Shown: positions 1,440 to 42,778 of the stretch, in pieces
Layout: each line of letters opens with the position of its first letter
Numbering within the stretch: position 1 is the stretch's first letter
Virus record (IMG/VR): IMGVR_UViG_3300037557_000148
Coordinates: 1 to 42,778 of that record
Direction: 5' to 3' (one strand)
Length of the DNA: 42,778 nucleotides
Source: a virus
Translations under genes and position numbers: made by a program
Notes under the pieces: model-generated
Databases searched by the model: none
What the model was told of the DNA's origin: nothing
What the model saw: only the letters and a program-made list of their open reading frames with translations

Positions 1440-4025
1440 ATGACAATTATATCAACAGATGCAAAGGACGATGAGGACAAAGACTCAAAATCATACGATG
1501 ACTTAGGGTCACTAACAGGGTCAGACCTGTTTGAGCATTTCTTTGACGAACTAAAAGCGAAGGTAAAGAGTGAGACTAAGACAGGCATAACAAAGGAGAG
1601 AACAGTTACCAAGAGCAGGATAGACCTAGTAGCAGCGCAGAAGGCGAAAGACTTGTTCAAACTAATCGCTGCACGAAATGCAGGTAATGGTGAGTGGGTT
1701 ATACCTGCCACTGAACTAATCAATTTGGATGACGAGTGGGAAGTTGTAAATAACGCATTCAAGAGGGTCATGTCACATGCTGATAAGCGCGTAGCATTCT
1801 TGAGAGCATGCCCAGAGTATGCAAGGCATGGTGTCCTTGAGTCTCTTGAGGTAAACGTTGACGACTTGAAGGAGAAGTGGACGTATCTTCGTGCTACCAT
1901 GCAGACTCATGATGAGAACGGATGTCTCATACTACAACCATTCATCGCCGCTACAAGCAGTGCAGTGATTGCGCCTACACAATTTGCAGCAATAGCAGCA
2001 GGGCATGATGGTATTACAGCAGGTGGCGCAAGGAAATTATACTTCATCCTCAATTCACAAGATGAAGTCCTATCATCGCACATCTATGCGGTCAACAACA
2101 AGAACGTCGTTGGTAAGTATGAGTGTGAGTTTGTTTATGAGAGAGGTGCTAACTATCGTGCGGCGAAGAAAGCAGTTGGAACACCATACTTAACACAGGT
2201 TCGTGCCGCACCACCGCATACCCCACGTGCTCCACCATTTACATACTACGTTGACCCTCAGACTAGAAAGCCAGTAGCAATACAGTACACTGAGGTAATG
2301 GAAGAGGGAGATACAGAGCCAACTAGGATTGTGGACGAAGAGTGGGCTAAGGACTACGTCAAGTCAATAGCAAATGTAGACTGTGCAATACCTGATGGTG
2401 TAGTGGTAGCAAAAGAGGTGTGGGTAGCAACTGGGCTAGAGGAAGTGGCTTGGTTGGAAGAGAACATCACGAAGGACAAGGTTCCAGAGGGTTTCGTGAT
2501 GTCTCACCCAAGTGGTTCACTGATGTCGCATATATGTGCGCACGGTAGGGAGAATGACATTCCATACATAGTTGGTAAGGTAGAGGTTGGAGATAGATGG
2601 GTGGAAGGCAGCCCCACATGGGCAGCCCTAGACCCCGATGGTGTAATTGAGCCACTGCCATACGACCCATGCATCCCTGCTTACATCAAGAAGTTCCAAG
2701 CAGGGCTGAATAACAGCCGCATCCAATGGCAGAGACAGCAAGGATGGCTTGCACACTTCTTCCATCAGTGGGCTGGTATGAATTACAATGGGGCAGATGC
2801 AGCATATTTAGCGGGAGGATTTGTTGGTTGGATGACTAAGGCTTTCCTTGCTACTTGCATTGGAGAGTTGAGGCATGCACCTAATCACAAAAGAGATTGC
2901 TCAGTTGAATTGATGCCTGTTCTTACAGCAATGATGGGTGGAAACAACTGGGAGTTGATTACATCTAGCACAATAACAGAGGGCAGCAAAATCAAAACAG
3001 TGAAGGGTAAGCCAGTTGCTACATACAACTCACAAGCAAGCAGACAACACTACTACGCTCTAATGGAGATGGTGAACGTAGACTTTGATGAGCAGAGGCT
3101 GGCTCTTAAGTGGGCTGCTAAACAATTCAATAATGGATGGCCCACCCAATATGGTGGTAAGAACTGGGGAATATGCGCTAACCTAGGAGTCAGGGTTTGT
3201 GAAGCAGCCATCGCATTCAACAACAATCCTAACAAGGAGACACTTACTGGACTACTGGGAGCAGTTAATTCAGCCAAGAATGCGGAACACAATAACGGCT
3301 TCCTGTTTGGTAAGTTCCTAAGCCAGAAGGCATTTGATTACAGTAGTGCGCACACAGACAGAGAAGGTAACATTCGTGGGTTGTTTGACCACTCTTCATC
3401 ATCTCTTGGATACATGTTCAAGGCTTATGAGATTGCTGCGGACTTCATGGATGGTGAACCTAATCAGAATTGTTTTGTTCCTAAAATGGATTGGCACACA
3501 CTCTTCTCATTCCTAAGGGGTAAAGGCCCATCTTACTGGAGACAGTGCTTCATCGCTCTTGATGATGATGTGCCTGAACCATTGAGGGATGCTGCACTAG
3601 CATGTGGACCGAAGTTGATGCACCATAGCAACAAGTATTCTCACAAGGAGAACTTCATTCCTTGTGGTATAGACACTTGTGAGTTGTGTAAGGAGCATGA
3701 TGTAGTAGTAATGAAACTAAGATTCGGCAATCATGCACCTAGTTTGCTACTTACACCATCGTATCCTGAGGTATACCCCGCTGGTAAGAAATCACAATCA
3801 TCCACTATGGCCTATGCAGTAACACAACTAATCAGAGACAGGAGATATGATGAGGTTACTCCTGAGATGTGGGTGGATGCATGGAATGGATTAAACAACC
3901 AAGACCCCACTTACCCTGTATTAACCAAGTTCCTAACTAAGTTCGCCAACACGCAGTTAGCAGATGACAAGGACTGGACTGACAAGGTGTTGGCGATAAC
4001 AAAGGAGAATGAAAAGAATGAGTAA
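1440..4025 (+). CDS. large protein with phosphohistidine-swivel-like segment
   Basis: About 861 residues and first gene of its operon. ATG 1440 is chosen because GGTGAG (1430-1435) precedes it by four bases and an earlier ATG at 1410 lies within the promoter. The N-terminal ~60 residues are acidic and low-complexity. Around residues 345-395 the sequence GSLMSHICAHGRENDIPYIV followed by VGDRW and later DPDG resembles the mobile domain of PEP-utilising enzymes (consensus TSHxAIxARExGIPxVVG, then DGD), with candidate phosphohistidine H364. No PEP-synthase, PPDK or ATP-grasp domain is recognised in the rest. A Cys cluster, CGIDTCELC, lies near residue 750. Function unknown; the swivel assignment is by eye. 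Confidence 0.75.
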   Translation: MTIISTDAKDDEDKDSKSYDDLGSLTGSDLFEHFFDELKAKVKSETKTGITKERTVTKSRIDLVAAQKAKDLFKLIAARNAGNGEWVIPATELINLDDEWEVVNNAFKRVMSHADKRVAFLRACPEYARHGVLESLEVNVDDLKEKWTYLRATMQTHDENGCLILQPFIAATSSAVIAPTQFAAIAAGHDGITAGGARKLYFILNSQDEVLSSHIYAVNNKNVVGKYECEFVYERGANYRAAKKAVGTPYLTQVRAAPPHTPRAPPFTYYVDPQTRKPVAIQYTEVMEEGDTEPTRIVDEEWAKDYVKSIANVDCAIPDGVVVAKEVWVATGLEEVAWLEENITKDKVPEGFVMSHPSGSLMSHICAHGRENDIPYIVGKVEVGDRWVEGSPTWAALDPDGVIEPLPYDPCIPAYIKKFQAGLNNSRIQWQRQQGWLAHFFHQWAGMNYNGADAAYLAGGFVGWMTKAFLATCIGELRHAPNHKRDCSVELMPVLTAMMGGNNWELITSSTITEGSKIKTVKGKPVATYNSQASRQHYYALMEMVNVDFDEQRLALKWAAKQFNNGWPTQYGGKNWGICANLGVRVCEAAIAFNNNPNKETLTGLLGAVNSAKNAEHNNGFLFGKFLSQKAFDYSSAHTDREGNIRGLFDHSSSSLGYMFKAYEIAADFMDGEPNQNCFVPKMDWHTLFSFLRGKGPSYWRQCFIALDDDVPEPLRDAALACGPKLMHHSNKYSHKENFIPCGIDTCELCKEHDVVVMKLRFGNHAPSLLLTPSYPEVYPAGKKSQSSTMAYAVTQLIRDRRYDEVTPEMWVDAWNGLNNQDPTYPVLTKFLTKFANTQLADDKDWTDKVLAITKENEKNE

Positions 4026-5385
4026 GAAAGATTGTCACAGCGGAAACCCACTCGTCTTCAAGACAGGAGGCACCAGCGTGTATGCTGGTGGGACGAACAG
4101 AGATGGGGGTTGGCACAGGATGAAGCCCATGCCACAATTGGCTATGGGGCCAATAGGCGTTATACGCTCAGCCAAGACTAGGGACATACTACCTGAGGGC
4201 TGGTCATCATCCTCTCTAGCAATAGGCGGTTCTACTCCTATAGTCATAGAGATTGACTGGCCTGACTATGGTATCCCCTCTAACCTACAAGGAAACTGGT
4301 GGAAGGCACTAGTGCAGGACATCAAGAAGAAGAACATTACAAGCATCTCTACTCAATGTATGGGAGGGCATGGTAGGACCGGCGTCCAACTAGCCATACT
4401 AGCACATCTATTGATGCCTAAGGACGAGCATGAATGGAAGGACGTTAATGAGTTGGTCACATGGGTGAGGACTAAATTCTGTTCACATGCTGTTGAGTCC
4501 AAGAGTCAGCAGACATACATCTCAGAGGTATGTGACATACCTGAAGGAGAGTCTGTAATCAGTATCACTGCAAACCCATGGGCTACAACCAACTTCGATG
4601 CTAGTGCTATCTTCACTGAGGATGAGTTGAAGCAAGCAGAAGCAGATAGACAAAGAGCAGAGAGGGAGAGCGCTGCCCAAAAGAACAGGAAATCACATCA
4701 AGGTGTCGAATGGAAGGGGCACTCTGATGAATCGAAAAACCGCCCACCAAAGAAGAAATACAGTTCACCAATCAAGAAAGGATGGTCGCTCACATGGTGT
4801 CCAGATTGTAACAATTACGAGTGGCGTAAGACGAGCGTTGCGGATATGGAGTGGCCATGTAGGTCATGTGGTAACCACAGAATTGAGCAAAGAGATGTTG
4901 AACTAATGAATGGGGAGGGCTTAGTGTTCTGTATTGATACAGATACACACTGGCATCCTATCGAGATGTTTTCACACAATCGTTCCTTCAAGGCAGAAGC
5001 AACAGATAGACGTATGAAGATAAAGGAACACACTGGAGGCTACTTTGAGATACAAGTGGGTAGTTCATACTGGCCAACGTGGTTCTTGGGAGAGGATAGT
5101 GCAAAAGACATAGTGCCTGTTCATCGTATCTACACTAAGATGAGGAAAGTGGAGAAGGAAATGCTACCTAAGCCTAAGCCTAATCAGAGGAAGATTACAG
5201 ATAACTTCAATGATGCGCCACCGCTTGACATTACTCTCGACCCTGATAGCCAATGGAGTCCTATCAGAGACCCACACAAAGACGAACCATTCGTAAATAA
5301 ACACCGAGATGTATTGGACAAATATGCAGACGAATTGGTGAAAAAGCGAAGACAAAGCAATGATGAAATAGAAACAGAGGACTGA
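4018..5385 (+). CDS. protein tyrosine/dual-specificity phosphatase-like protein with zinc ribbon
   Basis: 455 residues. The N-terminal domain carries both hallmarks of Cys-based phosphatases: a WPD loop in EIDWPDYGIPS (general acid D83) and the P-loop CMGGHGRTG, a CX5R-T signature with nucleophile C114 and R120. It would hydrolyse a phosphomonoester through a phosphocysteine. A charged linker (~200-250) leads to a zinc ribbon, CPDC...CRSC (~262-288), then an uncharacterised domain and a Lys/Asp-rich tail. ATG 4018 is preferred to ATG 4009 because the AAAGGAG site ends at 4006, only two bases before 4009 but eleven before 4018. It overlaps the swivel-like gene by eight bases, suggesting co-translation. 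The substrate (protein, RNA 5' end or nucleotide) cannot be told. Confidence 0.78.
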   Translation: MSKKDCHSGNPLVFKTGGTSVYAGGTNRDGGWHRMKPMPQLAMGPIGVIRSAKTRDILPEGWSSSSLAIGGSTPIVIEIDWPDYGIPSNLQGNWWKALVQDIKKKNITSISTQCMGGHGRTGVQLAILAHLLMPKDEHEWKDVNELVTWVRTKFCSHAVESKSQQTYISEVCDIPEGESVISITANPWATTNFDASAIFTEDELKQAEADRQRAERESAAQKNRKSHQGVEWKGHSDESKNRPPKKKYSSPIKKGWSLTWCPDCNNYEWRKTSVADMEWPCRSCGNHRIEQRDVELMNGEGLVFCIDTDTHWHPIEMFSHNRSFKAEATDRRMKIKEHTGGYFEIQVGSSYWPTWFLGEDSAKDIVPVHRIYTKMRKVEKEMLPKPKPNQRKITDNFNDAPPLDITLDPDSQWSPIRDPHKDEPFVNKHRDVLDKYADELVKKRRQSNDEIETED

Positions 5386-10666: not shown

Positions 10667-10917
10667 ACAAAAAGGATTGGGCTTCAGTGACGGATGAAGT
10701 GATTATGGATTTAGAGAGATATGGGTTGAAGGCTCGTAAAAATCATCCCAACCCCATCGGTTTGTTAATTGCAGAAATCAAACGACTACGAGCAGATGTT
10801 GAGCGGTTGCGTGAAGAAATAAATACATCACTTGAGTATATCAAGCGACCCGATATAGATGATGACTCACACACATTGAGTGTTGTGAAGACGGTGCTGG
10901 AAGATATTGGAAGGTGA
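10663..10917 (+). CDS. hypothetical coiled-coil protein
   Basis: 84 residues with a heptad-like segment (IAEIKRLRADVERLREEINT, residues ~36-55) suggesting a coiled coil or dimer. GAGGTGGAAGA precedes the ATG. Not recognised. Confidence 0.6.
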   Translation: MNKKDWASVTDEVIMDLERYGLKARKNHPNPIGLLIAEIKRLRADVERLREEINTSLEYIKRPDIDDDSHTLSVVKTVLEDIGR

Positions 10918-10920
10918 AGA

Positions 10921-11196
10921 ATGATGAGTGATGAAATCAAGTGGCAATCTCCTAGTATGGAAGGTAAATGGAAGGACGGCAAGGGTGTGATTCACCTACG
11001 AGCAATCGAGTATTACGGCAAGGATTGGATAGACATGCGCGTGATGAACATGAGTAACACACCACCGAACTTCACGAGACACGGCATCAGGCTAACGCTT
11101 GAACAAGCAGAGGAAGTGATGCCCATACTCAGAGAGATGATAGCAACAATGAAAGACAAGAGGGAAGAAGATGAGCGGAAGAGCAGTGAGCGTTAG
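10921..11196 (+). CDS. PC4/p15-like protein (tentative)
   Basis: 91 residues. The order IHLRAIEYYGKDWIDMRVM, then TRHGIRLTLEQAEEVMPILR, resembles the PC4 (transcriptional coactivator p15) fold, where a beta-sheet ending in a 'KKGIsLtleqw' strand-turn precedes a dimerisation helix. PC4-like proteins bind single-stranded DNA and occur in phages and archaea as transcription or replication factors. A charged tail (KDKREEDERKSSER) follows. It overlaps the next gene by 26 bases. The family call is from pattern only. Confidence 0.55.
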   Translation: MMSDEIKWQSPSMEGKWKDGKGVIHLRAIEYYGKDWIDMRVMNMSNTPPNFTRHGIRLTLEQAEEVMPILREMIATMKDKREEDERKSSER

Positions 11197-20044: not shown

Positions 20045-21067
20045 ATGGAATTATTGGATTTGGCTCAACCCAGAACACTAGCAGACCTAGTGGGATTGGA
20101 GCAACTCGTGGCTGATGTTAGGAAGTGGGATAGCGATACTGCTCCACAGGCTTTGCTCTTTCATGGGCCACCCGGCACAGGTAAGACAAGCGCTGCATAC
20201 GTGATAGCAAGTGTTCTTCTTGATTATCCCGCACAAAAATCCGAGCAAGGAATATATGGTGAAGGTGACTACTTTAACAGGTCTCAGCGTCTACCTAGAT
20301 GGTTAGAACATGACATTAACTTCATCGAAAGCAATGCCTCCGATGACAGGGGAATACAATTCGTTCGTGAGGGTTTGAAGGACGCAATGCGCGTCAAGCC
20401 GCTTGGAGTCAAGCGCAAGGTGATACTACTAGATGAGGCAGATGGTCTCACACCAGCAGCACAGGATGCGATGAGGCAATTGATAGAGAAGTATAGTGGG
20501 AATGCTATGCTTATACTCACATGCAATGAGTTGGAGAAGATACGACCAGCCATACGCTCACGATGTAGTGCATATGCGTTCAAACCTATATCACCACAAG
20601 CAGGAGCAGATAGATTACGAGCGATACTCTATGTGGAAGAACACAACGATGAAGCACTAATACCGTTGTTAGAAACCCTTGTCGAACTGATGAACGGAGA
20701 CTTGAGGGCATGCCTCATGTTCCTAGATTCGATAGACCTTGAGGACTTGAACGATAGAGTGACTGCTCTTGCGGCAATGGCTGAGGATGATTCAGCACTA
20801 ATGGCGATAGATGACGATTGGGTTAGACTACGCAGCAATCTACACGGCATGCTCAGGAATGGGTATGCCCTTAATCAAATTACAAGCGGGTTCTACAGGA
20901 ACTTGTATGACCACTTCGATGGCGAAGACAACATAGATGCCATTTGGAGTATAATGGCAGCATACGGTGACGTGATGACACAAAAATACACGTGGCCGGG
21001 AGATGACTATTCCTACCTAGATTATATGGTAGCAAAAATGAAAGAAAAGGTGAAGAAAAATGAATGA
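20045..21067 (+). CDS. clamp loader small subunit (RFC-S-like)
   Basis: 340-residue AAA+ ATPase that opens the sliding clamp and loads it on primed DNA. Walker A GPPGTGKT (41-48), Walker B VILLDEAD (126-133), sensor 1 LILTCNE (~156-162) and the SRC arginine-finger motif in IRSRCSAY (~168-175) are all intact. The length is typical of archaeal RFC small subunits (~320-340). An insertion after Walker A (about residues 60-95, YPAQKSEQGIYGEGDYFNRSQ) is longer than usual. No RFC large subunit is seen in the window, so the virus may form a homomeric loader or recruit the host's. The acidic C-terminal collar region is divergent. Confidence 0.93.
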   Translation: MELLDLAQPRTLADLVGLEQLVADVRKWDSDTAPQALLFHGPPGTGKTSAAYVIASVLLDYPAQKSEQGIYGEGDYFNRSQRLPRWLEHDINFIESNASDDRGIQFVREGLKDAMRVKPLGVKRKVILLDEADGLTPAAQDAMRQLIEKYSGNAMLILTCNELEKIRPAIRSRCSAYAFKPISPQAGADRLRAILYVEEHNDEALIPLLETLVELMNGDLRACLMFLDSIDLEDLNDRVTALAAMAEDDSALMAIDDDWVRLRSNLHGMLRNGYALNQITSGFYRNLYDHFDGEDNIDAIWSIMAAYGDVMTQKYTWPGDDYSYLDYMVAKMKEKVKKNE

Positions 21068-22388
21068 AGAAAATGAGAAAAACCCGTTCAAGAAAGAGCG
21101 GAAAACAGAAGAATGGCCTGATGAGGTTAGCCTGCGATTCAAGATGCAGGCTGAGCGCACAGGAGAGTCGTTTGATAAGGTCGCTGAGGCGTTTATCAAA
21201 CACATCAACGAAACATGGCAATGCAACGACTGGAAGGCAGAGGACGAAGACGTCCTTGTTGACTGGGCAGAGATGATGTTTGTTGAGGACAGAAGCAGCA
21301 ACATCAGTGGTGGTGGTGGAGAATCTACCACATTCGTAGGACACTGGCTTGGTGTAGAGGACAAGACCAACGATAGAAACGCATGGAACGTCCGTAATGC
21401 AACAAGCAAGTGGAACGATAACTCCAACGAAGCAATCTCCGATGGAGTTGTAGGACACTACTACAAGGAAGAGGGATTGTGGGTTATCAATACCGCCAAT
21501 GGCGCAATAGTAACCAACGAGACCACTGATGAAGAACCATCGCTTGGATTTAAAATTGGAGATGATTGGCTATGCCTACTATCGAAAGCGGGTCGACCAT
21601 ATCCGTCAGAGAGGCTAGGTAGATACTACCGCTTCCTCGGTAACGAGAAGAACACATATTTGAGTGACATACGCAAATGGCGTGTAGACTTGACTGGTGA
21701 AAACAGGAATTTAGAGATAGACATCGGAGTGCCTGTGCAGATACAGGTCAGGCTACCTACTACACAAAACGAAGCATTTCAAGATGTGCTAGGGACTAAC
21801 TACGACTTCGGAGATACTATGCAATACACTGACGAATGGGCACCTGAGGCTACGAAAGCAATCATCAACGACCCCTTCAAAATGTGGACTAGCGCAGAGT
21901 ATGTAGATGATATGGCAGTGCGCTTAACAGAACTAGAGGAAGCATACCACGAGGGCAAGAGAACGTTCACTGGTAGAGATGGCAACGATGGAACAGTTGG
22001 GCCTGAGATTATCATCAGAGGCACTGTAACTCGTATGTCTACAGAAGGTAGGGAGTCCGAATGGGATGAGACAGGCAGAAGTTACAGCCTGAACCTTACC
22101 AGTATGATGCTATCGAATGAACATGGTAATGGAAAGAAGAGCGAAGTGCCTTGCTGGATAAGCGGTGCTTGTAATGCTCTGGCTCATCCGTTCCAATTCA
22201 GAGACGTAGATGACGAACTATGGGGATATGGACAGAAGTCCCAAGTTCTAGTCTTCGGAAGACTGCGACTCAAGTTGCAGGATGGAGAAGCCCAACCGCA
22301 AATGTCGGTAATGGGAGTATACACTCAGGCTGGTAGAGCGCATAGACAGGTCGGTGGGGGAGACACTGGTTCTACACAGTTTGATTGA
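21060..22388 (+). CDS. candidate single-stranded DNA-binding protein (RPA-like)
   Basis: 442 residues between clamp loader and RecA-like genes. The N-terminus is charged. The C-terminal part from about residue 314 (EIIIRGTVTRMS, SYSLNLTSMML, VPCWISGACN, SQVLVFGRLRLK) has the alternating strand pattern of an OB fold, and SRYYRFLGNEKNTY-like aromatic/basic stretches occur in the middle. Position and OB-like pattern suggest RPA function in protecting unwound DNA. It has no zinc finger. The tail GGGDTGSTQFD is reminiscent of flexible SSB tails. The assignment rests mainly on context. Confidence 0.6.
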   Translation: MNEENEKNPFKKERKTEEWPDEVSLRFKMQAERTGESFDKVAEAFIKHINETWQCNDWKAEDEDVLVDWAEMMFVEDRSSNISGGGGESTTFVGHWLGVEDKTNDRNAWNVRNATSKWNDNSNEAISDGVVGHYYKEEGLWVINTANGAIVTNETTDEEPSLGFKIGDDWLCLLSKAGRPYPSERLGRYYRFLGNEKNTYLSDIRKWRVDLTGENRNLEIDIGVPVQIQVRLPTTQNEAFQDVLGTNYDFGDTMQYTDEWAPEATKAIINDPFKMWTSAEYVDDMAVRLTELEEAYHEGKRTFTGRDGNDGTVGPEIIIRGTVTRMSTEGRESEWDETGRSYSLNLTSMMLSNEHGNGKKSEVPCWISGACNALAHPFQFRDVDDELWGYGQKSQVLVFGRLRLKLQDGEAQPQMSVMGVYTQAGRAHRQVGGGDTGSTQFD

Positions 22389-22401: not shown

Positions 22402-22629
22402 ATGGTAACAAAGAAAGAAATTGAAGAACTACAAGAACAATACGACAACCTATTGCAAGAGGCTCTTGCACTACAGGAAGTGTCTAAGCAAAGACTCATT
22501 CTCCTGAAAGTGTTTGAGAGTTTCTTCAATGCAATAAACGCAACAGTAAACAGAACAAGAGTTGAGTTCGCTGAACTACAAACAGCCCAAATTACTGATG
22601 CGCCTGCGGAAGAAGAAGGTGCAGAGTGA
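22402..22629 (+). CDS. hypothetical coiled-coil protein
   Basis: 75 residues; GAGGTGAA at 22391-22398 places the start at ATG 22402 rather than further upstream. A coiled coil (IEELQEQYDNLLQEALALQE) is followed by a helix and an acidic tail (APAEEEGAE). It sits between the candidate RPA and the ATPase fragment; possibly an accessory subunit. Confidence 0.65.
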   Translation: MVTKKEIEELQEQYDNLLQEALALQEVSKQRLILLKVFESFFNAINATVNRTRVEFAELQTAQITDAPAEEEGAE

Positions 22630-22892
22630 TGGGCGGCTTTAACAAAGCAAAGCAAGCAGAGTTAGAGGCTGTACACGAAAGTGACAAAGGCGACCCGTTT
22701 GCTAACTTGAGAGAAGAACTACAGGACGTGAATGCGAACCAACCAAAGACGCATATTTTCATGGCACTGGTGGGTAAGGAGAACACAGGCAAGAGCGCTA
22801 TCGTGTTCGACTTTTACAAGAGATACTGTGACACTTTCGATGGAAGACAAACGACACTACTAGAGTTTACAGAAGGTGAAATAAATGAATGA
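22629..22892 (+). CDS. RecA-like ATPase, N-terminal part with Walker A (split gene)
   Basis: 87 residues from ATG 22629 (overlapping stop). After a variable leader, the core HIFMALVGKENTGKSAIVFD contains Walker A (G49-S56) and its following helix. The RecA-type fold then stops, at about residue 73; the final ~14 residues (TTLLEFTEGEINE) do not continue the fold. In phage and archaeal-virus RecA/RadA-like ATPases the next strand with Walker B normally follows within ~25 residues. Here it occurs in a separate gene at 23208, on the other side of a DUF3846-like gene. Confidence 0.72.
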   Translation: MGGFNKAKQAELEAVHESDKGDPFANLREELQDVNANQPKTHIFMALVGKENTGKSAIVFDFYKRYCDTFDGRQTTLLEFTEGEINE

Positions 22893-23211
22893 TATATGGG
22901 TTGAAGTTACACCAAACGATAATTGCATGTGGCAACTCAAAGGTAACACATACGCAGAAAAACCTACACTAGAAATGCTACAGGCAACAGTAGGCGGATA
23001 CATCGAATTTGTGCCCGACTCGTATTTGGCCGAAGATGTCATACACATAATTGTAAATGAAGAAGGTCTACTTAGGGAATTACCTGTGAACAATTTGGCT
23101 TCGCAACAATTGAGCATGACTGCCAACAACCCTATTTTTGGTAATGCGATTCTTCACGTCGATGAAAAATTCATTACGAAGAAATACTGGCTTAGTGAGG
23201 GAGAAGAATGA
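22885..23211 (+). CDS. DUF3846-like protein inserted between the ATPase halves
   Basis: 108 residues. The sequence LQATVGGYIEFV, IIVNEEGLLRELPVNNLAS, then NPIFGNAIL reproduces the DUF3846 pattern (LQxxVGGxIE..., NEEGxLxxLPxN..A, xGxxxI). This small alpha/beta domain is common in phages and on plasmids and is sometimes linked to ArdC/antirestriction neighbourhoods. It has its own ribosome site (AAGGTGAA at 22873-22880) and overlaps both ATPase fragments (8 and 4 bases). It therefore reads as an independent gene that has entered the ATPase locus. Confidence 0.7.
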   Translation: MNDIWVEVTPNDNCMWQLKGNTYAEKPTLEMLQATVGGYIEFVPDSYLAEDVIHIIVNEEGLLRELPVNNLASQQLSMTANNPIFGNAILHVDEKFITKKYWLSEGEE

Positions 23212-23927
23212 GCAAACCAAAGCAACTATGGATAGTAGATTTCGACAACGGTGGTTCAGCCACTAAATCGGCTTACTACGCTACCAATCAGAATATCAAG
23301 TGTTGGGAACCATGGGTATACATGAAGGGTTCTCGTAGCGCTTACGATTACCCAGCAACGCATGACCGTGTGATGAACATAATGCAGTTCGCTCTTGAAG
23401 AGCACGAGAACCTATGGGGAGTTCTTGTTAGTGGTATAGACCAATGGGACAGCGTGGCAACCAACTGTATGCGCATTGCTGATTTGGGATTATCCAAAGA
23501 CGGTATCGAAGCAGCAGACAACAGAGGTGCAGGCGATAACAAGAGAGTGCAGAACCAATGGGATTGGGCTGTGAGAGTGACGCGTTTCCACCAGTTGACT
23601 GCAATGTGCAGAGCGCTCGTTAAGAGAGGGGTGCGTGTGTTTTGGGAGACTCACATGAAAGACGTATACAAGGATGGCAAGGTAACACAGACTGACGGAC
23701 TCCCAGCATGGGAAAAGAGCAGCGCTGGTTACATGTTCCAAATCATACACTGTAAGAGGAAAGACATACGTGATGAAGATGGTAACGCAGTGGGCGAAGA
23801 GTTTAGTGCAACGTTTGTGAAGAGCAAGACGGATGCCTCACTACAGGGGCAAAGGATGGTCGTGCTCACTACCGAACAGGGCAAGCAACCTAACTTCATG
23901 GGTCTACCGGAACTTGAGAGGTTGTAA
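23208..23927 (+). CDS. RecA-like ATPase, C-terminal part with Walker B (split gene)
   Basis: 239 residues. It opens directly at the strand that should follow Walker A: KQLWIVDFDNGGSATKSAYY (Walker B-like D11/D13). It continues through WGVLVSGIDQWDS (second acidic strand), a helical region with RVTRFHQLTAMCRALVKRG and VRVFWETHMKD (sensor-like strand ending in His). There is no Walker A. Together with the 22629 product it would complete one RecA-type core. It probably forms a two-chain ATPase acting in recombination, DNA loading or strand exchange. GGGAGAAG precedes the start, so it is translated separately. Confidence 0.72.
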   Translation: MSKPKQLWIVDFDNGGSATKSAYYATNQNIKCWEPWVYMKGSRSAYDYPATHDRVMNIMQFALEEHENLWGVLVSGIDQWDSVATNCMRIADLGLSKDGIEAADNRGAGDNKRVQNQWDWAVRVTRFHQLTAMCRALVKRGVRVFWETHMKDVYKDGKVTQTDGLPAWEKSSAGYMFQIIHCKRKDIRDEDGNAVGEEFSATFVKSKTDASLQGQRMVVLTTEQGKQPNFMGLPELERL

Positions 23928-24640: not shown

Positions 24641-25408
24641 ATGGCACACATGACGCTAGATAAGAAGGAGTGGCTGAGCCATCTAGGTCAGTTCGACACC
24701 AATATCAACGACCTGATGCTCACTATCTACGATGACCCAAAATGCTTGGGCTATGCAGCAGGATATCAGACACACTTCTACAGAGTGTATCAGCAATACC
24801 CGAACACCGATACCAAAGCAGGCGTCATTCACATATCAGATTTGGATAAAGTCTGTGCCTTCTTGAAGAAGTGCAATGGAGATGTCAAGATAAAGCACGC
24901 AAAAGGGGGCAAGACTCTCTATGTGACTGGCGGGAAACTCAAGATGACCCTACCTATTATGGATATGAAGAGCAGCAAATTAGTGCCTACATATGAGAAA
25001 TTAGTAAAGGCGGCTGAGGAATCCAGTTGGGCTTCATTCGGTAACGACACATACACTCTCTATGGTAAAACTCAATTGTCTGATATACTGAAATTATCAG
25101 GCTTGAAGAACATCGTGAAAAGCAATTCGGACTACGTGATATCAGCAGATGCCACAAGCAACGAGATAGCAATATCGGTGGGAAAAACACACAGCACCAA
25201 ATTGTTCGCTACTGGAGAACTCAAGGATGCAGAGGGGCCAAAACACACAGTTACGTCTAACTTCGGTCCATGGTTACTCCCCTGTCTTGGTTTAGTAGAC
25301 CCCGCCATGCCTACACGCATACACTTTGGTGATGCTACTGGCTTCGTTGTGAGACAGGCAGACAACATGGTCAAGCGCCTGCTGATAATTATAGACCAGC
25401 AGGAGTGA
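24641..25408 (+). CDS. PCNA-like sliding clamp
   Basis: 255 residues, matching the ~245-260 of archaeal PCNA. Sequence identity is low, but the two-domain clamp layout can be followed: a first domain ending near residue 110 (GKTLYVTGGKLKMTLPIM), a linker, and a second domain with SNSDYVISADATSNEIAIS and LPCLGLVDPAMPTRIHFGDA. The last matches the PCNA C-terminal 'P.xxxxxxGxxG.xxfxlAP' strands. It sits immediately before PolB in the clamp-loader operon. It would tether PolB and other partners to DNA. GGAGGTTGATTG precedes the ATG. Confidence 0.8.
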   Translation: MAHMTLDKKEWLSHLGQFDTNINDLMLTIYDDPKCLGYAAGYQTHFYRVYQQYPNTDTKAGVIHISDLDKVCAFLKKCNGDVKIKHAKGGKTLYVTGGKLKMTLPIMDMKSSKLVPTYEKLVKAAEESSWASFGNDTYTLYGKTQLSDILKLSGLKNIVKSNSDYVISADATSNEIAISVGKTHSTKLFATGELKDAEGPKHTVTSNFGPWLLPCLGLVDPAMPTRIHFGDATGFVVRQADNMVKRLLIIIDQQE

Positions 25409-25413
25409 AATGG

Positions 25414-27789
25414 ATGATAATCAACCACTACTATCCCGAAGATAACTGGGATGTCGGAAGCCCTCATCTATACTTGAGGTATCGTGGAAAGGACGGGGCG
25501 CTAGTCGTTCGCACCATCGACCCCAATCACGCACACAAGCCATTGGACTACGTGCCTCCCCATTGTTGGATACCTGTTGATACTCATCCAAGGAAACTCA
25601 GCCGCGTCACTGCGCGATATCCGGGACTCAAAATCAACGACACTATACAAGCGACAGGTATAGACCAAGTCAAACTCATGCGACTAGATGTTCCTAATCC
25701 TTCTTTATTGTATGAGGTGAAGAAGGAACTCCAAACTTACGAGGCTGACATTCCATACGAAGACCAAGTAATGATACACATGTATCCCAACACCAAGGAG
25801 ATACCTGAATTCCATCCGAGGATTTGGTATTTTGATATGGAATGGCAGCCACAAGAGCCTCACGAAGGTGCAATCACCATGATTGCAATCGATGACACTC
25901 ATGCAGATGAGCCTGTCATTTTCGCTTGGAACGAAAACACGAAGGAGACAGAAGTAGACCACATAGAAAGAGAGAGTGGATACATGCGTTATCTCTACAG
26001 CAATGAAGAGGACATGCTTACTGGCTTTCTAGAGCATTTGAATGCTTGCGACCCCGATATGTTGGTAGCACACGCTATGATGTGGGCAGATTTACCGAAG
26101 TTAGTAGAGAGATTAGGGCGTAGAGCGAGTCTACTTAGTCCCTTGAAGCAAGTATTAAGGCCGAATAAGAAGGGATACTACAAGGAAATCTCACAACCCA
26201 TTCTAGGTAGATTATGTTATGACACGGCTCTACCATGGATGGAAGGCAGCGGTCTTGAAGCGATGTGGCACAAAAGTGGAAGAGGAACATTCAGGAGTAA
26301 GAAACTGGCTTCGATTGCCGAGGACTTGGAATTAGACAAGGAATTCGGAGAAGAAGGAGTAAAAATGAATGCGGACGTATTTACTTGGTGGGTTGAGAAT
26401 TTCGATGAGTTCGTGGATTATTGTGTGAGAGATACTACTTTGTTGAGAAAATGCAGCGAAAGAATCAAGGCAATACCATATCACTTGGCTATGCAAAAGT
26501 ATTGCGGCATCCCATTCAAAAGCACATGCAAAGTATCGAGATACATACGCGGGCTGATATCTAGGAAAACCGATTTGAAAGCAAAAACGTCCTATAACAG
26601 AAAGAGGAACGAGTATAGAGCAGCAACAGTTCCCGATACCATTGGAGGTAGATGGGAAAAAGTAGCATGTATCGACTTCAAGTCAATGTATCCATCTATA
26701 TTTGTCGATGCTAACCTTTGTCCAACTACCAAGAGGTATTCGGCAGGCGAGAACATCAGAAGCGTGCCCAATGGGACACACTGGGATACAACAAGCACAG
26801 GCATTATTCCATCAGTCATTCAGGGTATGCTAGAATTGAGAGCAGAATACAAGAAATTGCTGAAAGAAGCCAAGACTGATGAAGAGAAGTTACAATACGA
26901 CATGATGCAGACCGCAGTGAAGGTAGCCACCAACGCCGCGTATGGATACGTATCGCAGAAGGAGGTTGGTGGAGCATGGATAGACCCAGACATAGGGGCG
27001 ACCATTACCTATTATGGCAGGCAGTGCATTGAAACCTTGCTTATTGAAAGTGACAAAGCAGGCTACAAGGCACTAGCAGGACACACAGACTCAGGCTATA
27101 TTCAAATCCCATTTGATAAAACAGAAGAACATCTCGCTAAACTGAATAATTACATTCAGAAGAAATACGATTTGCCGAATATGGAAATAGAACTTGAGGC
27201 ATACTTTGACTACTGGTTGACTGCTGATGTAAAGAATCAGAACTTTGGCATCATGGTGTGGCCTCCTGAGAAGAAGGGCCATTTGAAAGTAACAGGGTTT
27301 TCCTACAAGGCATCTATCGTATCGCCTTTGACCAAGGAAATACAGGGACAGATATTCCAAATGATAGGCACAGGGGCAGAAGAGGATGAGGTAACTGCAT
27401 TCATCAGACCAATAGCAAAAGAGGTATTGGCTGGTGAGCGCACAGTAGAGCAACTGGCGCCCTACGGAAGAATTGGACAGGACGAGTATCAGAGAGCACC
27501 ACCTATGGCTGTGAGGGGGGCATACTACTACAACGACCATATCAACTCCAAAGAGCCATTCAGGACAGGGGATAGCCTACAGTGGATATACACAATAGGC
27601 ACACCTGATGATAAGCCCCACACACTAGTGGTAGGATTCAGGGACGCCTCTGAGATTAGCGACTATCACATCGATTACGGAATGTGCGTAGATAAGTTCA
27701 TCAAGGCCAAAATCAAGAACATCTACCGAGTGCTGGATTGGGATTTGAACAGGGCATCAGGAGCACCTATGCCCAAGAAACACTGGTGA
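25414..27789 (+). CDS. family B DNA polymerase
   Basis: 791 residues; ATG 25414 is chosen because GGAG (25402-25405) is eight bases upstream, though GTG 25405 overlaps the clamp stop. The 3'-5' exonuclease domain has Exo I YFDMEW (D141, E143) and Exo III YCVRDTTL. Polymerase motifs are A DFKSMYPSI (D421), B KVATNAAYG (K503, N507, Y510, G511) and C AGHTDSGY (H557, T558, D559). The usual motif C is DTDS, so the first Asp is replaced by His while the essential second Asp is kept. The thumb-region KxY motif is also divergent (KKGH). It is the replicative polymerase of the virus and has no intein. Confidence 0.95.
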   Translation: MIINHYYPEDNWDVGSPHLYLRYRGKDGALVVRTIDPNHAHKPLDYVPPHCWIPVDTHPRKLSRVTARYPGLKINDTIQATGIDQVKLMRLDVPNPSLLYEVKKELQTYEADIPYEDQVMIHMYPNTKEIPEFHPRIWYFDMEWQPQEPHEGAITMIAIDDTHADEPVIFAWNENTKETEVDHIERESGYMRYLYSNEEDMLTGFLEHLNACDPDMLVAHAMMWADLPKLVERLGRRASLLSPLKQVLRPNKKGYYKEISQPILGRLCYDTALPWMEGSGLEAMWHKSGRGTFRSKKLASIAEDLELDKEFGEEGVKMNADVFTWWVENFDEFVDYCVRDTTLLRKCSERIKAIPYHLAMQKYCGIPFKSTCKVSRYIRGLISRKTDLKAKTSYNRKRNEYRAATVPDTIGGRWEKVACIDFKSMYPSIFVDANLCPTTKRYSAGENIRSVPNGTHWDTTSTGIIPSVIQGMLELRAEYKKLLKEAKTDEEKLQYDMMQTAVKVATNAAYGYVSQKEVGGAWIDPDIGATITYYGRQCIETLLIESDKAGYKALAGHTDSGYIQIPFDKTEEHLAKLNNYIQKKYDLPNMEIELEAYFDYWLTADVKNQNFGIMVWPPEKKGHLKVTGFSYKASIVSPLTKEIQGQIFQMIGTGAEEDEVTAFIRPIAKEVLAGERTVEQLAPYGRIGQDEYQRAPPMAVRGAYYYNDHINSKEPFRTGDSLQWIYTIGTPDDKPHTLVVGFRDASEISDYHIDYGMCVDKFIKAKIKNIYRVLDWDLNRASGAPMPKKHW

Positions 27790-35505: not shown

Positions 35506-35732
35506 AATACGAACCGAGGGTAGAATTGCCCCAAGTAGAAGACATGACGAAGAACGAACTATGGGAACTGAGGACAGCCTTCGATACCCTATACATGATG
35601 ATTGTGCGAGGTAACAACCTGCACGATATCTCAAGGGTGGCATACAAGTTAGCGAAGAGGGTGAAATACCCATTCGACAGACGAATGCTAAACCCTGAGG
35701 GACTAGTAGAAGTAGGAGATGAGGAAGAATGA
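35499..35732 (+). CDS. hypothetical helical protein
   Basis: 77 residues, helical (TKNELWELRTAFDTLYMMI), acidic C-terminus. It starts inside the exonuclease stop region after GAGGTGGAAGTAG and overlaps the chaperonin start by four bases. Not recognised. Confidence 0.6.
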   Translation: MVEYEPRVELPQVEDMTKNELWELRTAFDTLYMMIVRGNNLHDISRVAYKLAKRVKYPFDRRMLNPEGLVEVGDEEE

Positions 35733-37261
35733 AAGAAGGAGATAGCGAGACGACGCTGAGAAGCAACATAGAGGCAGCAAGAACGATTGTGAATACGGTG
35801 AAGACGACACTAGGACCACTTGGGCGCGACAAGTTGTTGATGGACTCGGGCGGTAACACCATCGTAACCAACGACGGTGCGACTATCTTACGCGAACTGG
35901 ATGTCAGTCACCCCACTGGTAAGATGATTATCGAATGCTCACAGACACAGGAGACCGAGTGCTATGACGGCACAACGACTGCGACTGTGCTAGCAGGAGA
36001 ACTACTGACTAACAGCGAGGGACTGCTCAACAGGGGGCTACACCCAAATGTGGTCTGCAAAGGCTACCACGACGCTGCACAAATTGCAATCAAATACTTG
36101 GAGAGAATAGCCCCACCGTTGCATGAAGCGACTCATATACAAAACACAGATAGAGACTCTGATAATCCATTAACATTGGAGGATGTTGCTCGCACGGCAA
36201 TCACAGGAAAGACCGTAGACGCTTCGCTAGACGATGTGGCTAAACTCTGCGTTTTAGCAGTGGATAAGGCAGGAAGTGCTGACAAGGTGAAAGTGTTATG
36301 CCTACCCGGAGGGAGCCTGTCAAACTCATATCTCTTTAATGGTGCAATCGTCAATAAAGATTTGGTGCATGAAGCGGAGATAGACGGTGAGCAGAATATC
36401 ATCCTAGTGAACACAGGGCTAGAAGCACAGAAGACTGACGAGAACATACAGGTTCAATTAGACATGCAAGGCTATACCGAGTTCAAGCAATCATCTAAGG
36501 ATAACTTACTCAAGCAAGCCAAGATGATTGTTGAGCATCTGCCTAACGGCGGCATTGTATTCGTCAGAGATGGTGCTCTAGACCATGTTATCGCCTATCT
36601 CAAGAAGAACGGCATACACATCGTTAGAAGGCTCCCAGAGAGCACTATGCGTGCGCTCTCGTCCACTCTAGGTATCTCAGTGGCTCAAACCCCCTCTGAC
36701 ATAGAGTGCGGGGCTGTAGGTAAGGTTCGCAGAGAGAAGCACTACGACGTCTATTACCTGTTTGTATCAGGTAAGGTAGACTCAGACCAATCAACTCTCG
36801 TCTTGCGTGGCGCTACAACTACCACCTTAGATGAAATTGAGAGAGGCTTTGATGACGCACTAGGCGTGGTATCACTGGTGATGAATGGAGACAAGATAGT
36901 AGCAGGGGGCGGAAGTGCCTTCGCTGCTATGGCACATCATGTGCGCTCTGAGGCAGCGAGTGCAACAGGTAGGTCACAAATGGCCATAGAAGCCTTCGCA
37001 GACTCATTGGAAATAATTCCTGCCACCATTGCGGAGAACGGCGGTCAAGACCCACTGGATTGTATTCTAGCGTTGAGACACAAAATACAGAGCGGACACA
37101 CTAATTTTGGGCCAGACTTAGAGAACGAAGGTATAACTGATATGTGGGAGTTAGGAGTAATCGAACCAATGTCTCTTATCAGACAAGCAGTTCTGAGTGC
37201 AACCGAAGTAACGACCGCAATCCTCAAAATTGACGACATGATTGCCAAGAGGGGTGAGTGA
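35729..37261 (+). CDS. group II chaperonin (thermosome subunit)
   Basis: 510-residue ATP-driven folding machine. Nucleotide-site motifs are present: TLGPLGRDKLLMD (28-39), VTNDGATIL (D49), DGTTTATVLAGELL (D80), and GGGSAFAAMAHHV in the C-terminal equatorial segment. It ends KIDDMIAKR, typical of the last equatorial strand, without the GGM-rich tail. The N-terminus is ~20 residues shorter than cellular thermosomes (usual length ~540-550), and the apical region is somewhat divergent. It probably forms its own ring or mixes with host subunits to fold virion or replication proteins. A virus-encoded thermosome is a known hallmark of magroviruses. It overlaps the previous gene and abuts the next. 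Confidence 0.93.
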   Translation: MKEGDSETTLRSNIEAARTIVNTVKTTLGPLGRDKLLMDSGGNTIVTNDGATILRELDVSHPTGKMIIECSQTQETECYDGTTTATVLAGELLTNSEGLLNRGLHPNVVCKGYHDAAQIAIKYLERIAPPLHEATHIQNTDRDSDNPLTLEDVARTAITGKTVDASLDDVAKLCVLAVDKAGSADKVKVLCLPGGSLSNSYLFNGAIVNKDLVHEAEIDGEQNIILVNTGLEAQKTDENIQVQLDMQGYTEFKQSSKDNLLKQAKMIVEHLPNGGIVFVRDGALDHVIAYLKKNGIHIVRRLPESTMRALSSTLGISVAQTPSDIECGAVGKVRREKHYDVYYLFVSGKVDSDQSTLVLRGATTTTLDEIERGFDDALGVVSLVMNGDKIVAGGGSAFAAMAHHVRSEAASATGRSQMAIEAFADSLEIIPATIAENGGQDPLDCILALRHKIQSGHTNFGPDLENEGITDMWELGVIEPMSLIRQAVLSATEVTTAILKIDDMIAKRGE

Positions 37262-37507
37262 ATGGAATATCTGTATGTTGAGAATAACATTGGTGAAGGC
37301 AAGGATAATTGTTTCAATTGTGCTTCTGAAATGGTTGAAGAATACCCTGTTTATGATAGACTTGGTCGTGAGTTATCAACCGCTATCCTTTGTATTGAGT
37401 GCGGGGCTTTGTGGAATAACATCACCCGCCGAGTCATAACCAAGAGAGCGAGAATATACATGAAAGAAACCCGTAAATTGCTACTAAAGTTGAAGGAAAG
37501 TGAGTGA
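37262..37507 (+). CDS. zinc-ribbon small protein
   Basis: 81 residues, directly after the thermosome stop (GGGTGAGTGAATG). CFNC (17-20) and CIEC (~44-47) with LWNN form a ribbon; the C-terminal helix is strongly basic. Not recognised. Confidence 0.62.
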   Translation: MEYLYVENNIGEGKDNCFNCASEMVEEYPVYDRLGRELSTAILCIECGALWNNITRRVITKRARIYMKETRKLLLKLKESE

Positions 37508-39832: not shown

Positions 39833-42778
39833 TCATATTAATTTGTTATGCAATACTACTGCATGGAATGCAACTGAAATAGCAGCAGTGCTGCCTTGTT
39901 TATTTTGATACCTAATTCTAAGTGTATCATCTGATGAATCGTAATCAGCATCCAACGTTCCTATTCTAGACGCTCCGGTATACATGATAGCCCATTCTGT
40001 GAAATTGACATATCTTGTCCATGTTCCTAACACTTGTCTTTCAACCCCTTGAACTAATGCTTTGAAAGATTCTATTTCATCAGCAGTTCCATCTTCTACT
40101 GATACGGTTAATTCAATTGTTTGGTGTCCTCCTGTGCCTGTCAAATCATCTAAATCAAAGTTCATCAATTCAACATAACCATCATCAGCAAGAGATGAAT
40201 CACTCACTGTTCCGGCTACTATACCCGAATCATCGTTAGCACCTGTGTAATATCCACTTGTAGTTCCACTACTTCCTGTCCCTATGGTTACATCTGTAAT
40301 GATTGATGTAGCCGTTCCTGATGCTGCTGCCCAAGAGGTAGTCCCATTTGTGTTAGCAGTTAGGACATAGCCCGTTGTTCCAGTGACGGCAGTTGGGAGA
40401 GTGTATGCTTCATTGATTGTGACACCATCTTCTATTTCTAACACGATTTCTTGAGTCCCTGCAACCATTGTTTTGAACTGTAAAGCACCATCATTTGTTC
40501 CGCTTGTTACATCTTTTGCTATTGCAGAGATTTTGGCATAAGTGCGTTCTCCCCCTGCACTATCTTCACCATTAAATCCTATGTTACCTAAAGCGTCATT
40601 ATCTGCTGGTGAAGAACTATCCCTGTATAATTTTAAAGATGGGCCATTATTAGCATCATCGTCTCCATCAAGAAGAAGTAATGTTGGGCCAGTTGCAGTA
40701 GCATCATCTCTTGATACAGTAAGCATTCCTTCGGTTACAGGAGAAGTTAATGAGCCAATTTTAATTTTACCGGCTGAGTCACCTGTAATCCAAACAGGGC
40801 TACCGTCGCCCGAAGAAATTGAGAGTTGGTCGTCACCTGTTGCACTCGCTACATCAGCCGCACCGATGACCACATTGTTGTCGCCCGTAGTGATATTGTC
40901 GCCAGCGGTCCACCCTATGGTGATGTTTTTATGCGCCGCCGCAGCGAGATTGTAGCCCGACTGGTAGCCTAACCCGATATTGTAGTCACCAGTCAATGCG
41001 CCATTCGATACGGCTCCGTAACCAATACCTATGTTATGGCCACCCGTATTATCAGGATTACTTAGTGCGCTATATCCTACAGCAATACTGTATGTGGGGT
41101 CACCATAGAACATAGCCTGATAGCCAATTGCAGTATTACCTCCCTCTGTATCTAATTGCGTCCCTGTTTGGTGACCTATCAGAGTGTTGTAATCTCCACT
41201 GGTAAGGTCTTCACCGGCATAGTTTCCCATAACTACATTTTTTATGCCACCATTAGAGAGACGCATAGCCTCGTAGCCAATGGCGATGTTGTCATCATGG
41301 GTGTCTGAGTCATGTAAAGCCGTGTACCCAATAGCGATATTTCGTGAGCCTGTGGATATAGTAGCACCAGCAGATGTCCCTAACATTGTATTGTAATCTC
41401 CTGTTGTTACAGAATCGCCAGCACTTGCACCTATGGCTATGTTGTCCCTTCCACCATCTGCTAAGTAGAGGGTTCTATACCCAATACCTATGTTATTCCA
41501 ATCTCCTGTTGAAGTATAATTAGATTCATAACCTATTGCTATTGTCCTGCTCGCCCCATCTGTTATGTTTTTCCCGGCTGAATTACCCAATAGAATACTA
41601 CCGTCAGCAGTTGTGAGAGCCTCCCCTGCTCTGTAACCAATGGCGATGTTATTATCTCCGGTAGTAATATTTTCAAGAGCCTCGTTACCAATTGCTACAT
41701 TCCATTTTGCGTGGCTACTTACACCATACATTGCACTTGCGCCTATTGCTACATTGAATCCACCACTTGTATTAGCCCCTTGATGGGCCATGTAACCAAT
41801 TGCTACATTTGAATTACTTACTGTGTTCCTTAGTGCCGCATATCCTAATGCGGCATTATTCGTTACTGTTTCTGCTTCTTTGAGTGTTTGACCACCAATT
41901 GTTGTATTGTAGTCGCCGGAAGTAATCTTTTCCTGAGAGTATTGACCAATAGCAATATCCTGAGTTCCATTTGTTATGGATTTGAATACATCTGAACCAA
42001 TACCTACATTGTAATTTGCACTACTTAGTGTTCCTGTCGTTGGTGCGCTTCCATCACTATTAGTCTGTATTAGAATTGAATCTGTGAAGTTAGTAGCATC
42101 CATTAGCACATCATCTAATGCACCAATATCAGAAGCACCACCGACTGCTGAACCTGCTACTGTTAGAGAGCCGGGTATATTCACTACACCTGCTGAACTA
42201 CCTTCAATCCAAACAGGACTTCCATCTCCTGATGCTATTATTAAAGTATCATCTGTTGAAGCCGAAGCCGCACTTGCATCACCTATAATCACATTGTTAG
42301 AACCAGATTGGAGATTATTTCCAGCAGTATTTCCTATTAATATGTTTTTAGCACCCGTAACTTGTTGCCCTGCTTGTGTGCCAATACCAATGTTATATCC
42401 ACCTGCGGCTGAACCGTTTAAAGATTGATAACCTACCCCGATATTATGATTACCTGTTACCGCATTACCGTTTAGGCTGTAATAACCAACCGCAGTATTG
42501 TAATCTCCGCTTGTGATATTAGAACCGGCTGATTTACCAATACCTGTATTTCTATTACCGCTACTTAAGGAATCTAAAGAGTTTCCACCTACACCTACAT
42601 TATCGCTACTTGTAATAGCATCAGATAACTCATTGAGAGCAGAAGCACCACCGACTGCTGAACCAGCAACAGTTAGAGAACCTGCAATGTTTACTACACC
42701 AGCAGCAGATATAGTCATTCTTTCTGTTCCAGCAGTTGAGAATCCTAATATGTCTGTTCCGCCTCTATACATTCCTGT
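39833..42778 (-). CDS. long tail fibre with ~30 YadA-head-like repeats (5' end cut off)
   Basis: At least 981 residues; the frame is open at the right edge, so the N-terminus is missing. Most of the first ~690 residues are about thirty ~20-residue units of the type NxAIGYxAxxxxTxGDxN, resembling the left-handed beta-roll repeats (Hep/Hag) of trimeric adhesin heads, also common in marine phage fibres. A linker block, SLTVAGSAVGGAS, occurs twice and DGSPVWIxGxSAG twice. The C-terminal ~280 residues are a non-repetitive domain with a beta-rich receptor-binding look. No peptidase S74 chaperone is seen. The protein would be a trimeric adhesion fibre. Confidence 0.82.
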   Translation of the reverse strand, partial: TGMYRGGTDILGFSTAGTERMTISAAGVVNIAGSLTVAGSAVGGASALNELSDAITSSDNVGVGGNSLDSLSSGNRNTGIGKSAGSNITSGDYNTAVGYYSLNGNAVTGNHNIGVGYQSLNGSAAGGYNIGIGTQAGQQVTGAKNILIGNTAGNNLQSGSNNVIIGDASAASASTDDTLIIASGDGSPVWIEGSSAGVVNIPGSLTVAGSAVGGASDIGALDDVLMDATNFTDSILIQTNSDGSAPTTGTLSSANYNVGIGSDVFKSITNGTQDIAIGQYSQEKITSGDYNTTIGGQTLKEAETVTNNAALGYAALRNTVSNSNVAIGYMAHQGANTSGGFNVAIGASAMYGVSSHAKWNVAIGNEALENITTGDNNIAIGYRAGEALTTADGSILLGNSAGKNITDGASRTIAIGYESNYTSTGDWNNIGIGYRTLYLADGGRDNIAIGASAGDSVTTGDYNTMLGTSAGATISTGSRNIAIGYTALHDSDTHDDNIAIGYEAMRLSNGGIKNVVMGNYAGEDLTSGDYNTLIGHQTGTQLDTEGGNTAIGYQAMFYGDPTYSIAVGYSALSNPDNTGGHNIGIGYGAVSNGALTGDYNIGLGYQSGYNLAAAAHKNITIGWTAGDNITTGDNNVVIGAADVASATGDDQLSISSGDGSPVWITGDSAGKIKIGSLTSPVTEGMLTVSRDDATATGPTLLLLDGDDDANNGPSLKLYRDSSSPADNDALGNIGFNGEDSAGGERTYAKISAIAKDVTSGTNDGALQFKTMVAGTQEIVLEIEDGVTINEAYTLPTAVTGTTGYVLTANTNGTTSWAAASGTATSIITDVTIGTGSSGTTSGYYTGANDDSGIVAGTVSDSSLADDGYVELMNFDLDDLTGTGGHQTIELTVSVEDGTADEIESFKALVQGVERQVLGTWTRYVNFTEWAIMYTGASRIGTLDADYDSSDDTLRIRYQNKQGSTAAISVAFHAVVLHNKLI
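40850..42650 (-). repeat. imperfect tandem repeats encoding fibre beta-roll units
   Basis: Roughly thirty degenerate ~60-base units, each encoding an N-x-x-I/L/V-G core. Two near-identical blocks (GCACCACCGACTGCTGAACC around 42136 and 42648) are separated by ~510 bases, showing duplication of a larger module. Confidence 0.8.

Follow-up and report, generated by a model that had tools for sequence, protein, structure and literature searches.

Can the core of a RecA-type ATPase be encoded by two genes with a third one lying between them, and which came first, the split or the intervening gene? This question is raised by the virus record IMGVR_UViG_3300037557_000148 (IMG/VR), a stretch of 42,778 bases that is called the window below. 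The first-pass annotation had offered two explanations: either the ATPase gene was split by an inserted DUF3846 gene and now gives a two-chain enzyme, or an intron-like element carries the DUF3846 frame. The reading favoured here, with a probability of about 0.78, is a two-chain ATPase of RecA fold with one rebuilt active site, in which gene fission came first and DUF3846 followed as a later passenger, and which would play a Sak4/RadB-like role together with an SSB-like protein.

Organization of the Locus

The N-terminal half of the ATPase (N-half, 87 aa) is encoded on the plus strand, as are all genes described in this section, from ATG 22629 (or GTG 22626) to 22892. This ORF aligns to the first 80–90 positions of the intact homologues L013 and L006 and comprises an N-terminal tail, strand beta-1, the Walker A motif GKENTGKS (22773–22796), seen directly in the sequence, and the P-loop helix. 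The C-terminal half (C-half, 239 aa; 23208–23927) runs from strand beta-2 to the C-terminus and is 78–83% identical to L013/L006 and L001. The DUF3846 gene (108 aa; 22885–23211) lies within the fission site. Its product matches Pfam PF12957 with 42.8 bits against a cut-off of 27.5 (E 6.5e-11) and belongs to PHROG 3777, which bears out the first assignment of the middle gene; a literature search for DUF3846 returned one passing mention. The three frames, with a ribosome site at the start of each, and their overlapping ends all lie where they had been placed before: the N-half and DUF3846 frames overlap by 8 nt, the DUF3846 and C-half frames by 4 nt (ATGA).

The gene order RFC, SSB-like, small coiled-coil gene, ATPase, PCNA, PolB is conserved among the loci. 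In the window, a clamp-loader ATPase resembling the RFC small subunit (20045–21067; PF13177, 2.5e-16; PF00004, 5.4e-15) is followed by an SSB-like protein of 442 aa (21060–22388), which neighbours the ATPase in nearly all loci, and by an ORF for a 75-aa coiled-coil-like protein (22402–22629), which overlaps the ATPase start and keeps its position in the relatives. Downstream lie the PCNA sliding clamp (24641–25408) and a family B DNA polymerase, PolB (25405–27789; PF00136, E 1.1e-30). The PCNA gene gave no match by sequence profile and was identified by predicted structure alone (AlphaFold2, pLDDT 89): the closest solved structures are all PCNAs (E 1.4e-12), and the best matches are archaeal ones.

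Whole and Split Forms in Related Viruses

Relatives were collected from IMG/VR, the C-half and the intact family serving as queries for the scans (10, 36 and 80 loci). The uninterrupted gene, which the first-pass annotation proposed to seek in related viral genomes, was found: L013 and L006 encode a single 320-aa chain that spans both halves (about 78% identity over the C-half), so that the two window ORFs together match one chain, and a single chain is also encoded by the majority of the remaining relatives, at identities as low as about 40% (dozens of loci). The break seen in the window recurs in 13 IMG/VR contigs (L012, L014–L020, L025, L028, L039, L040 and L074). Since 13 other contigs share the break and so many relatives encode one chain, the split is neither chance nor an assembly error. 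In most split forms nothing intervenes and the two halves meet in an ATGA overlap; Walker A, of the form G[KQH]ENTGK[ST], is kept in all split forms. No relatives of the ATPase were found among isolated phage records or in a cellular genome collection.

A separate observation concerns two sets of intact relatives, L044, L100, L101, L103–L106 and L120–L127 on the one hand and L037, L086, L087 and L116 on the other. Their Walker A is altered, the glycine of GK being replaced by Cys (GHDGTCKS) or Ser (NTSKT), and the gene is still conserved.

Both halves are under strong purifying selection (L017/L019 dN/dS: N-half 0.147/1.34, C-half 0.084/1.16), hence both are needed. That the gene is broken, one half being a remnant while a host or other recombinase is used, is very improbable. 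The C-half of L020 does carry a nonsense codon (CAA to TAA at codon 7; L020 7886–7906), which is a sequencing error or a real variant in a contig otherwise near-identical to L017. However, dN/dS is low in both halves, Walker A and the C-half motifs persist across saturated synonymous divergence, and 14 related records, some longer than 100 kb, gave no Rad51-family match above cut-off.

Translation of the halves as one fused protein, by programmed frameshifting at the ATGA overlap, could be imagined for the split relatives without DUF3846, where the overlap is only 4 nt. It is scarcely credible, as in L017 and L018 a stop in the C-half frame stands directly 5' of the ATG (0 nt open), no slippery run is present, and in the window the halves are kept apart by 108 codons belonging to another gene. 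The ribosome sites at the split C-half starts are strong (-7.2 to -11.7 kcal/mol), which points to re-initiation rather than frameshifting; the annotation was right that this is not a simple frameshift. Balanced supply of the halves is favoured by translational coupling, in which stop and start codons overlap and the last part of the upstream gene contains a strong ribosome site.

Position of the Cut in the Predicted Fold

The intact L013 protein was modelled with AlphaFold2 from an alignment of 19 sequences. Model confidence is moderate (mean pLDDT 69.5), the overall value being lowered by disordered parts, with core blocks at about 80–88. In a Foldseek search against the PDB all 50 of the listed matches were RecA (E 2.5e-9, probability 1.00), with TM-scores of about 0.45 against RecA, and phage RecA/AAA ATPases were matched in a viral structure library. 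The model contains beta-1 (47–52), a helix (58–75), beta-2 (86–91) and a later strand (149–155). The RecA-fold core order (beta1-Ploop-alpha1-beta2-...-WalkerB-...) is thus predicted for the intact homologue, and the intact chain probably has the RecA fold.

The segment LWIVDFD (23226–23246), previously taken for Walker B, corresponds to model strand 86–91 and is therefore beta-2, which follows the P-loop helix. About 60 residues further on comes the Walker B-type strand, LWGVLVSGID (23412–23441); it corresponds to model strand 149–155, and its W, G and D are invariant in the alignment. In RecA, beta-2 carries Glu96. The third acid of the DFD/DFE segment is D in the window lineage and E, as in RecA, in deeper relatives.

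The cut site lies in the loop that connects the P-loop helix with beta-2; in the alignment this loop is of variable length among intact relatives. The P-loop is consequently on the 87-aa chain, while the catalytic-acid strand, Walker B and the remaining sheet are on the 239-aa chain. Beta-1, which is missing from the C-half, is a central strand in the RecA topology. To our knowledge, there is no known RecA-fold ATPase with its P-loop and catalytic strands on separate proteins. The earlier claim of a RecA-like ATPase in two genes is thus upheld as regards the split, the intact homologues, the predicted fold and the selection on both halves; its two-chain assembly is presumed.

By sequence the family stands apart. 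Neither half alone exceeded the Pfam cut-off for any family, searches of Pfam, PHROGs and PDB sequences with either half or the intact family gave no named recombinase, the RecA, Rad51, AAA_24 and Sak4 profiles gave no significant match to the ATPase family, and hhalign of the ATPase against E. coli RecA found nothing. One weak match to PHROG 124 was obtained, in 1 of 19 family members. Lacking a significant match to these profiles, the ATPase is classed by fold only, outside the named sequence families. The AAA_24 matches seen in related records belong to the clamp-loader gene. The viral ATPase is like bacterial RecA and archaeal RadA in its predicted fold and in the modelled order of Walker A, beta-2 acid and Walker B; unlike them, it gives no sequence match and in this virus would consist of two chains.

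Order of Events at the Junction

A replisome tree was built from the SSB-like, PCNA and PolB proteins. The intact L013/L006 are nested in the split clade as sister to the split L012/L028 (support 100/100), and the split L074 is sister to the intact L026 (100/99). A split clade excluding L013/L006 is rejected by SSB+PCNA+PolB (p-AU 2e-28) and likewise by the C-half alone (p-AU 3e-4). On this tree at least three changes of state occur at a single hinge: either two fissions with a single re-fusion or a single fission with two re-fusions. A history of fissions without any re-fusion takes more steps, and the simplest history includes re-fusion. L013 and L006 have an internal Met at the exact position of the split C-half start, where the ribosome site is -2.1 and -3.7 kcal/mol; a Met retained without a ribosome site is apparently what would be expected of a re-fused gene. 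The states present in the family are whole, split, split with an extra gene and, apparently, re-fused.

DUF3846 lies between the halves only in the window, L012 and L025, where it is orthologous and at the same site. It was not found elsewhere in 30 related records, several of them longer than 80 kb and many of them fragments. L025 and L018, whose neighbouring SSB-like, PCNA and PolB proteins are 98–99% identical, form a filled/empty-site pair: at the junction they are distinguished by a single, cleanly delimited cassette with an 11-bp repeat, AATGAGCGATA, at its edges. DUF3846 therefore arrived at, or left, a gene that was already split. This pair, together with the predominance of split relatives without DUF3846, means that insertion of DUF3846 as the cause of the split is not the most economical history.

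An insertion of DUF3846 that caused the split, followed by deletion wherever the gene is now missing with a scar left behind, is rather unlikely. Such a history would be in keeping with DUF3846 orthologues at exactly one site in three separate split lineages (window, L012, L025), and the L025 repeat might equally serve for precise removal of the gene. However, the presence of DUF3846 on the tree requires three gains and thus only three changes, whereas one gain with many losses requires more; moreover, L074 is split outside the main clade without DUF3846, and L025 is placed among close relatives that have none.

The position of DUF3846 within a conserved enzyme core, frequent for introns, is what could speak for an intron-like or splicing element, from which a single mRNA or protein is restored. 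This proposal of the first-pass annotation does not withstand comparison with the natural empty sites (L014–L019, L028, L074), which retain the N-half stop and an ATGA start in another frame. Excision of the DUF3846 gene leaves the N-half and C-half in separate frames, and each edge coincides with an ORF boundary and a ribosome site. There is accordingly next to no likelihood of splicing here.

In the favoured fission-first history, a stop codon together with a ribosome site, placed in a loop that tolerates change, would be enough to split the gene. DUF3846 would be a passenger that three lineages later acquired at the coupled junction; the probable route is recombination where start codons provide microhomology.

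Possible Function of the Proposed Two-Chain ATPase

The 87-aa and 239-aa chains would assemble and rebuild one active site; we infer physical assembly, ATPase activity, a recombination role and PCNA binding of the halves. The rebuilt ATPase could act in annealing or recombination beside the adjacent SSB-like protein, PCNA and PolB. Since no Rad51-family protein above cut-off was found in 14 related records, the ATPase stands out as the best candidate for a recombinase. By analogy, it is most likely a Sak4/RadB-like ATP-dependent single-strand annealing or recombination protein, with the SSB-like neighbour as its putative partner.

The 442-aa neighbour presumably acts as an SSB. It gave no profile match, and an OB fold was not found by profile search. 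Its C-terminal tail, GGxTxxxQF, is near-invariant across more than 100 loci and resembles SSB interaction tails. Sak4 of phage HK620 is a RecA/RadB-like ATP-dependent annealing protein with a cognate SSB, whose C-terminal tail matters (PMC5928155). The resemblance is that an ATPase with a predicted RecA fold is here encoded next to an SSB-like gene, whose product has a near-invariant C-terminus. Unlike HK620 Sak4, which is one chain, the ATPase here is encoded as two, and the sequence searches gave no more towards homology with Sak4 than the single weak PHROG 124 match.

Close to its C-terminus the N-half carries a tail resembling a PCNA-interacting peptide, QTTLLEFT (22848–22871, plus strand), recognized by motif conservation; the tail peptide reads GRQTTLLEFTEGEINE. 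The ending [GS][RK]QTxLxxF is conserved in three split lineages (window, L014–L016 and the L017–L019 group). The pattern Qxx[LIM]xx[FYW] within the last 22 residues occurs in 1 of 64 window ORFs, namely the N-half, and in 1.4% of 2796 ORFs of the related loci. Compared with a Qxx[LIM]xx[FY][FY]-like PIP box, the eighth residue of QTxLxxF is not aromatic. We take this tail to resemble the peptide with which archaeal RFC large subunits bind PCNA. PIP-like matches within the intact proteins were discarded, as they represent the beta-2 strand (QLWILDF). The tail is missing from L012, L028 and L074, so the split does not depend on it, and it can be no more than a peculiarity of the new C-terminus in certain lineages. 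In some lineages this tail may serve to tether the ATPase to the viral PCNA. A further-reaching proposal, that the fission is reversible and selected, that the tail lets the clamp deliver the ATP-binding piece for fork-controlled assembly, and that DUF3846 regulates assembly in some viruses, is doubtful.

The gene content (RFC-S, PCNA, PolB, chaperonin, ligase) fits the order Magrovirales when compared, by gene content alone, with that given in PMC10768690, and the virus is probably a magrovirus-type, marine archaeal tailed virus. The neighbourhood of a halovirus PolB gene gave no clue.

Other genes of the window may be mentioned. An archaeal-type chaperonin (Cpn60/TCP-1, E 1.4e-120) is encoded at 35729–37261. 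A gene of 81/82 aa (MxYLYVENNI...) follows it at 37262–37507 and in L025 stands between the C-half and PCNA (10722–10970); thus, small genes shuffle between junctions in these viruses. A 979-aa protein with NIAIG/NTxIGxxA repeats, similar to trimeric adhesin head repeats (39833–42772, minus strand), is probably a tail fibre. A 458-aa protein (4009–5385) has a tyrosine-phosphatase-type domain (PF00102, E 2e-5) and zinc-ribbon-like cysteines.

Comparison with Known Split Genes and Significance

Split enzymes of T4-like phages include Aeh1 NrdA (mobE), the T4 topoisomerase large subunit (mobA) and DNA polymerase 43A/43B; in Aeromonas phage 25, the gene may have been in two pieces before the endonuclease entered it (PMC2988022). 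As in those phages, a core replication enzyme is encoded here as two genes, its reassembly being known there and presumed here, and the history in two steps, a split and then a passenger, resembles that of Aeromonas phage 25 (PMC2988022). Unlike the T4-like cases, the passenger is DUF3846 rather than a homing endonuclease, most split forms are free of any passenger, the cut parts Walker A from the rest of the RecA core, and the tree implies re-fusion. The mitochondrial cox2 of Campsomeris, an insertional fission, is likewise a pair of complementary genes for one protein with other ORFs between them; the gene and the genome are different, and the intervening cluster there holds a putative nuclease thought to be the cause of fission (PMC5374615).

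Split phage replication enzymes that reassemble are therefore already known. New are the protein class, the virus group, the non-endonuclease passenger, the inferred re-fusion and the separate P-loop chain. A prior description of the split ATPase was not found in the literature; an earlier mention in work on Poseidoniales viruses is possible.

The natural series of whole, split, split-plus-passenger and apparently re-fused genes in close relatives makes the order of gene-fission events directly readable. The family offers a natural two-piece RecA-type ATPase for testing how little of such an enzyme needs covalent joining, and it gives a hint of clamp-tethered recombination in viruses of abundant marine archaea.
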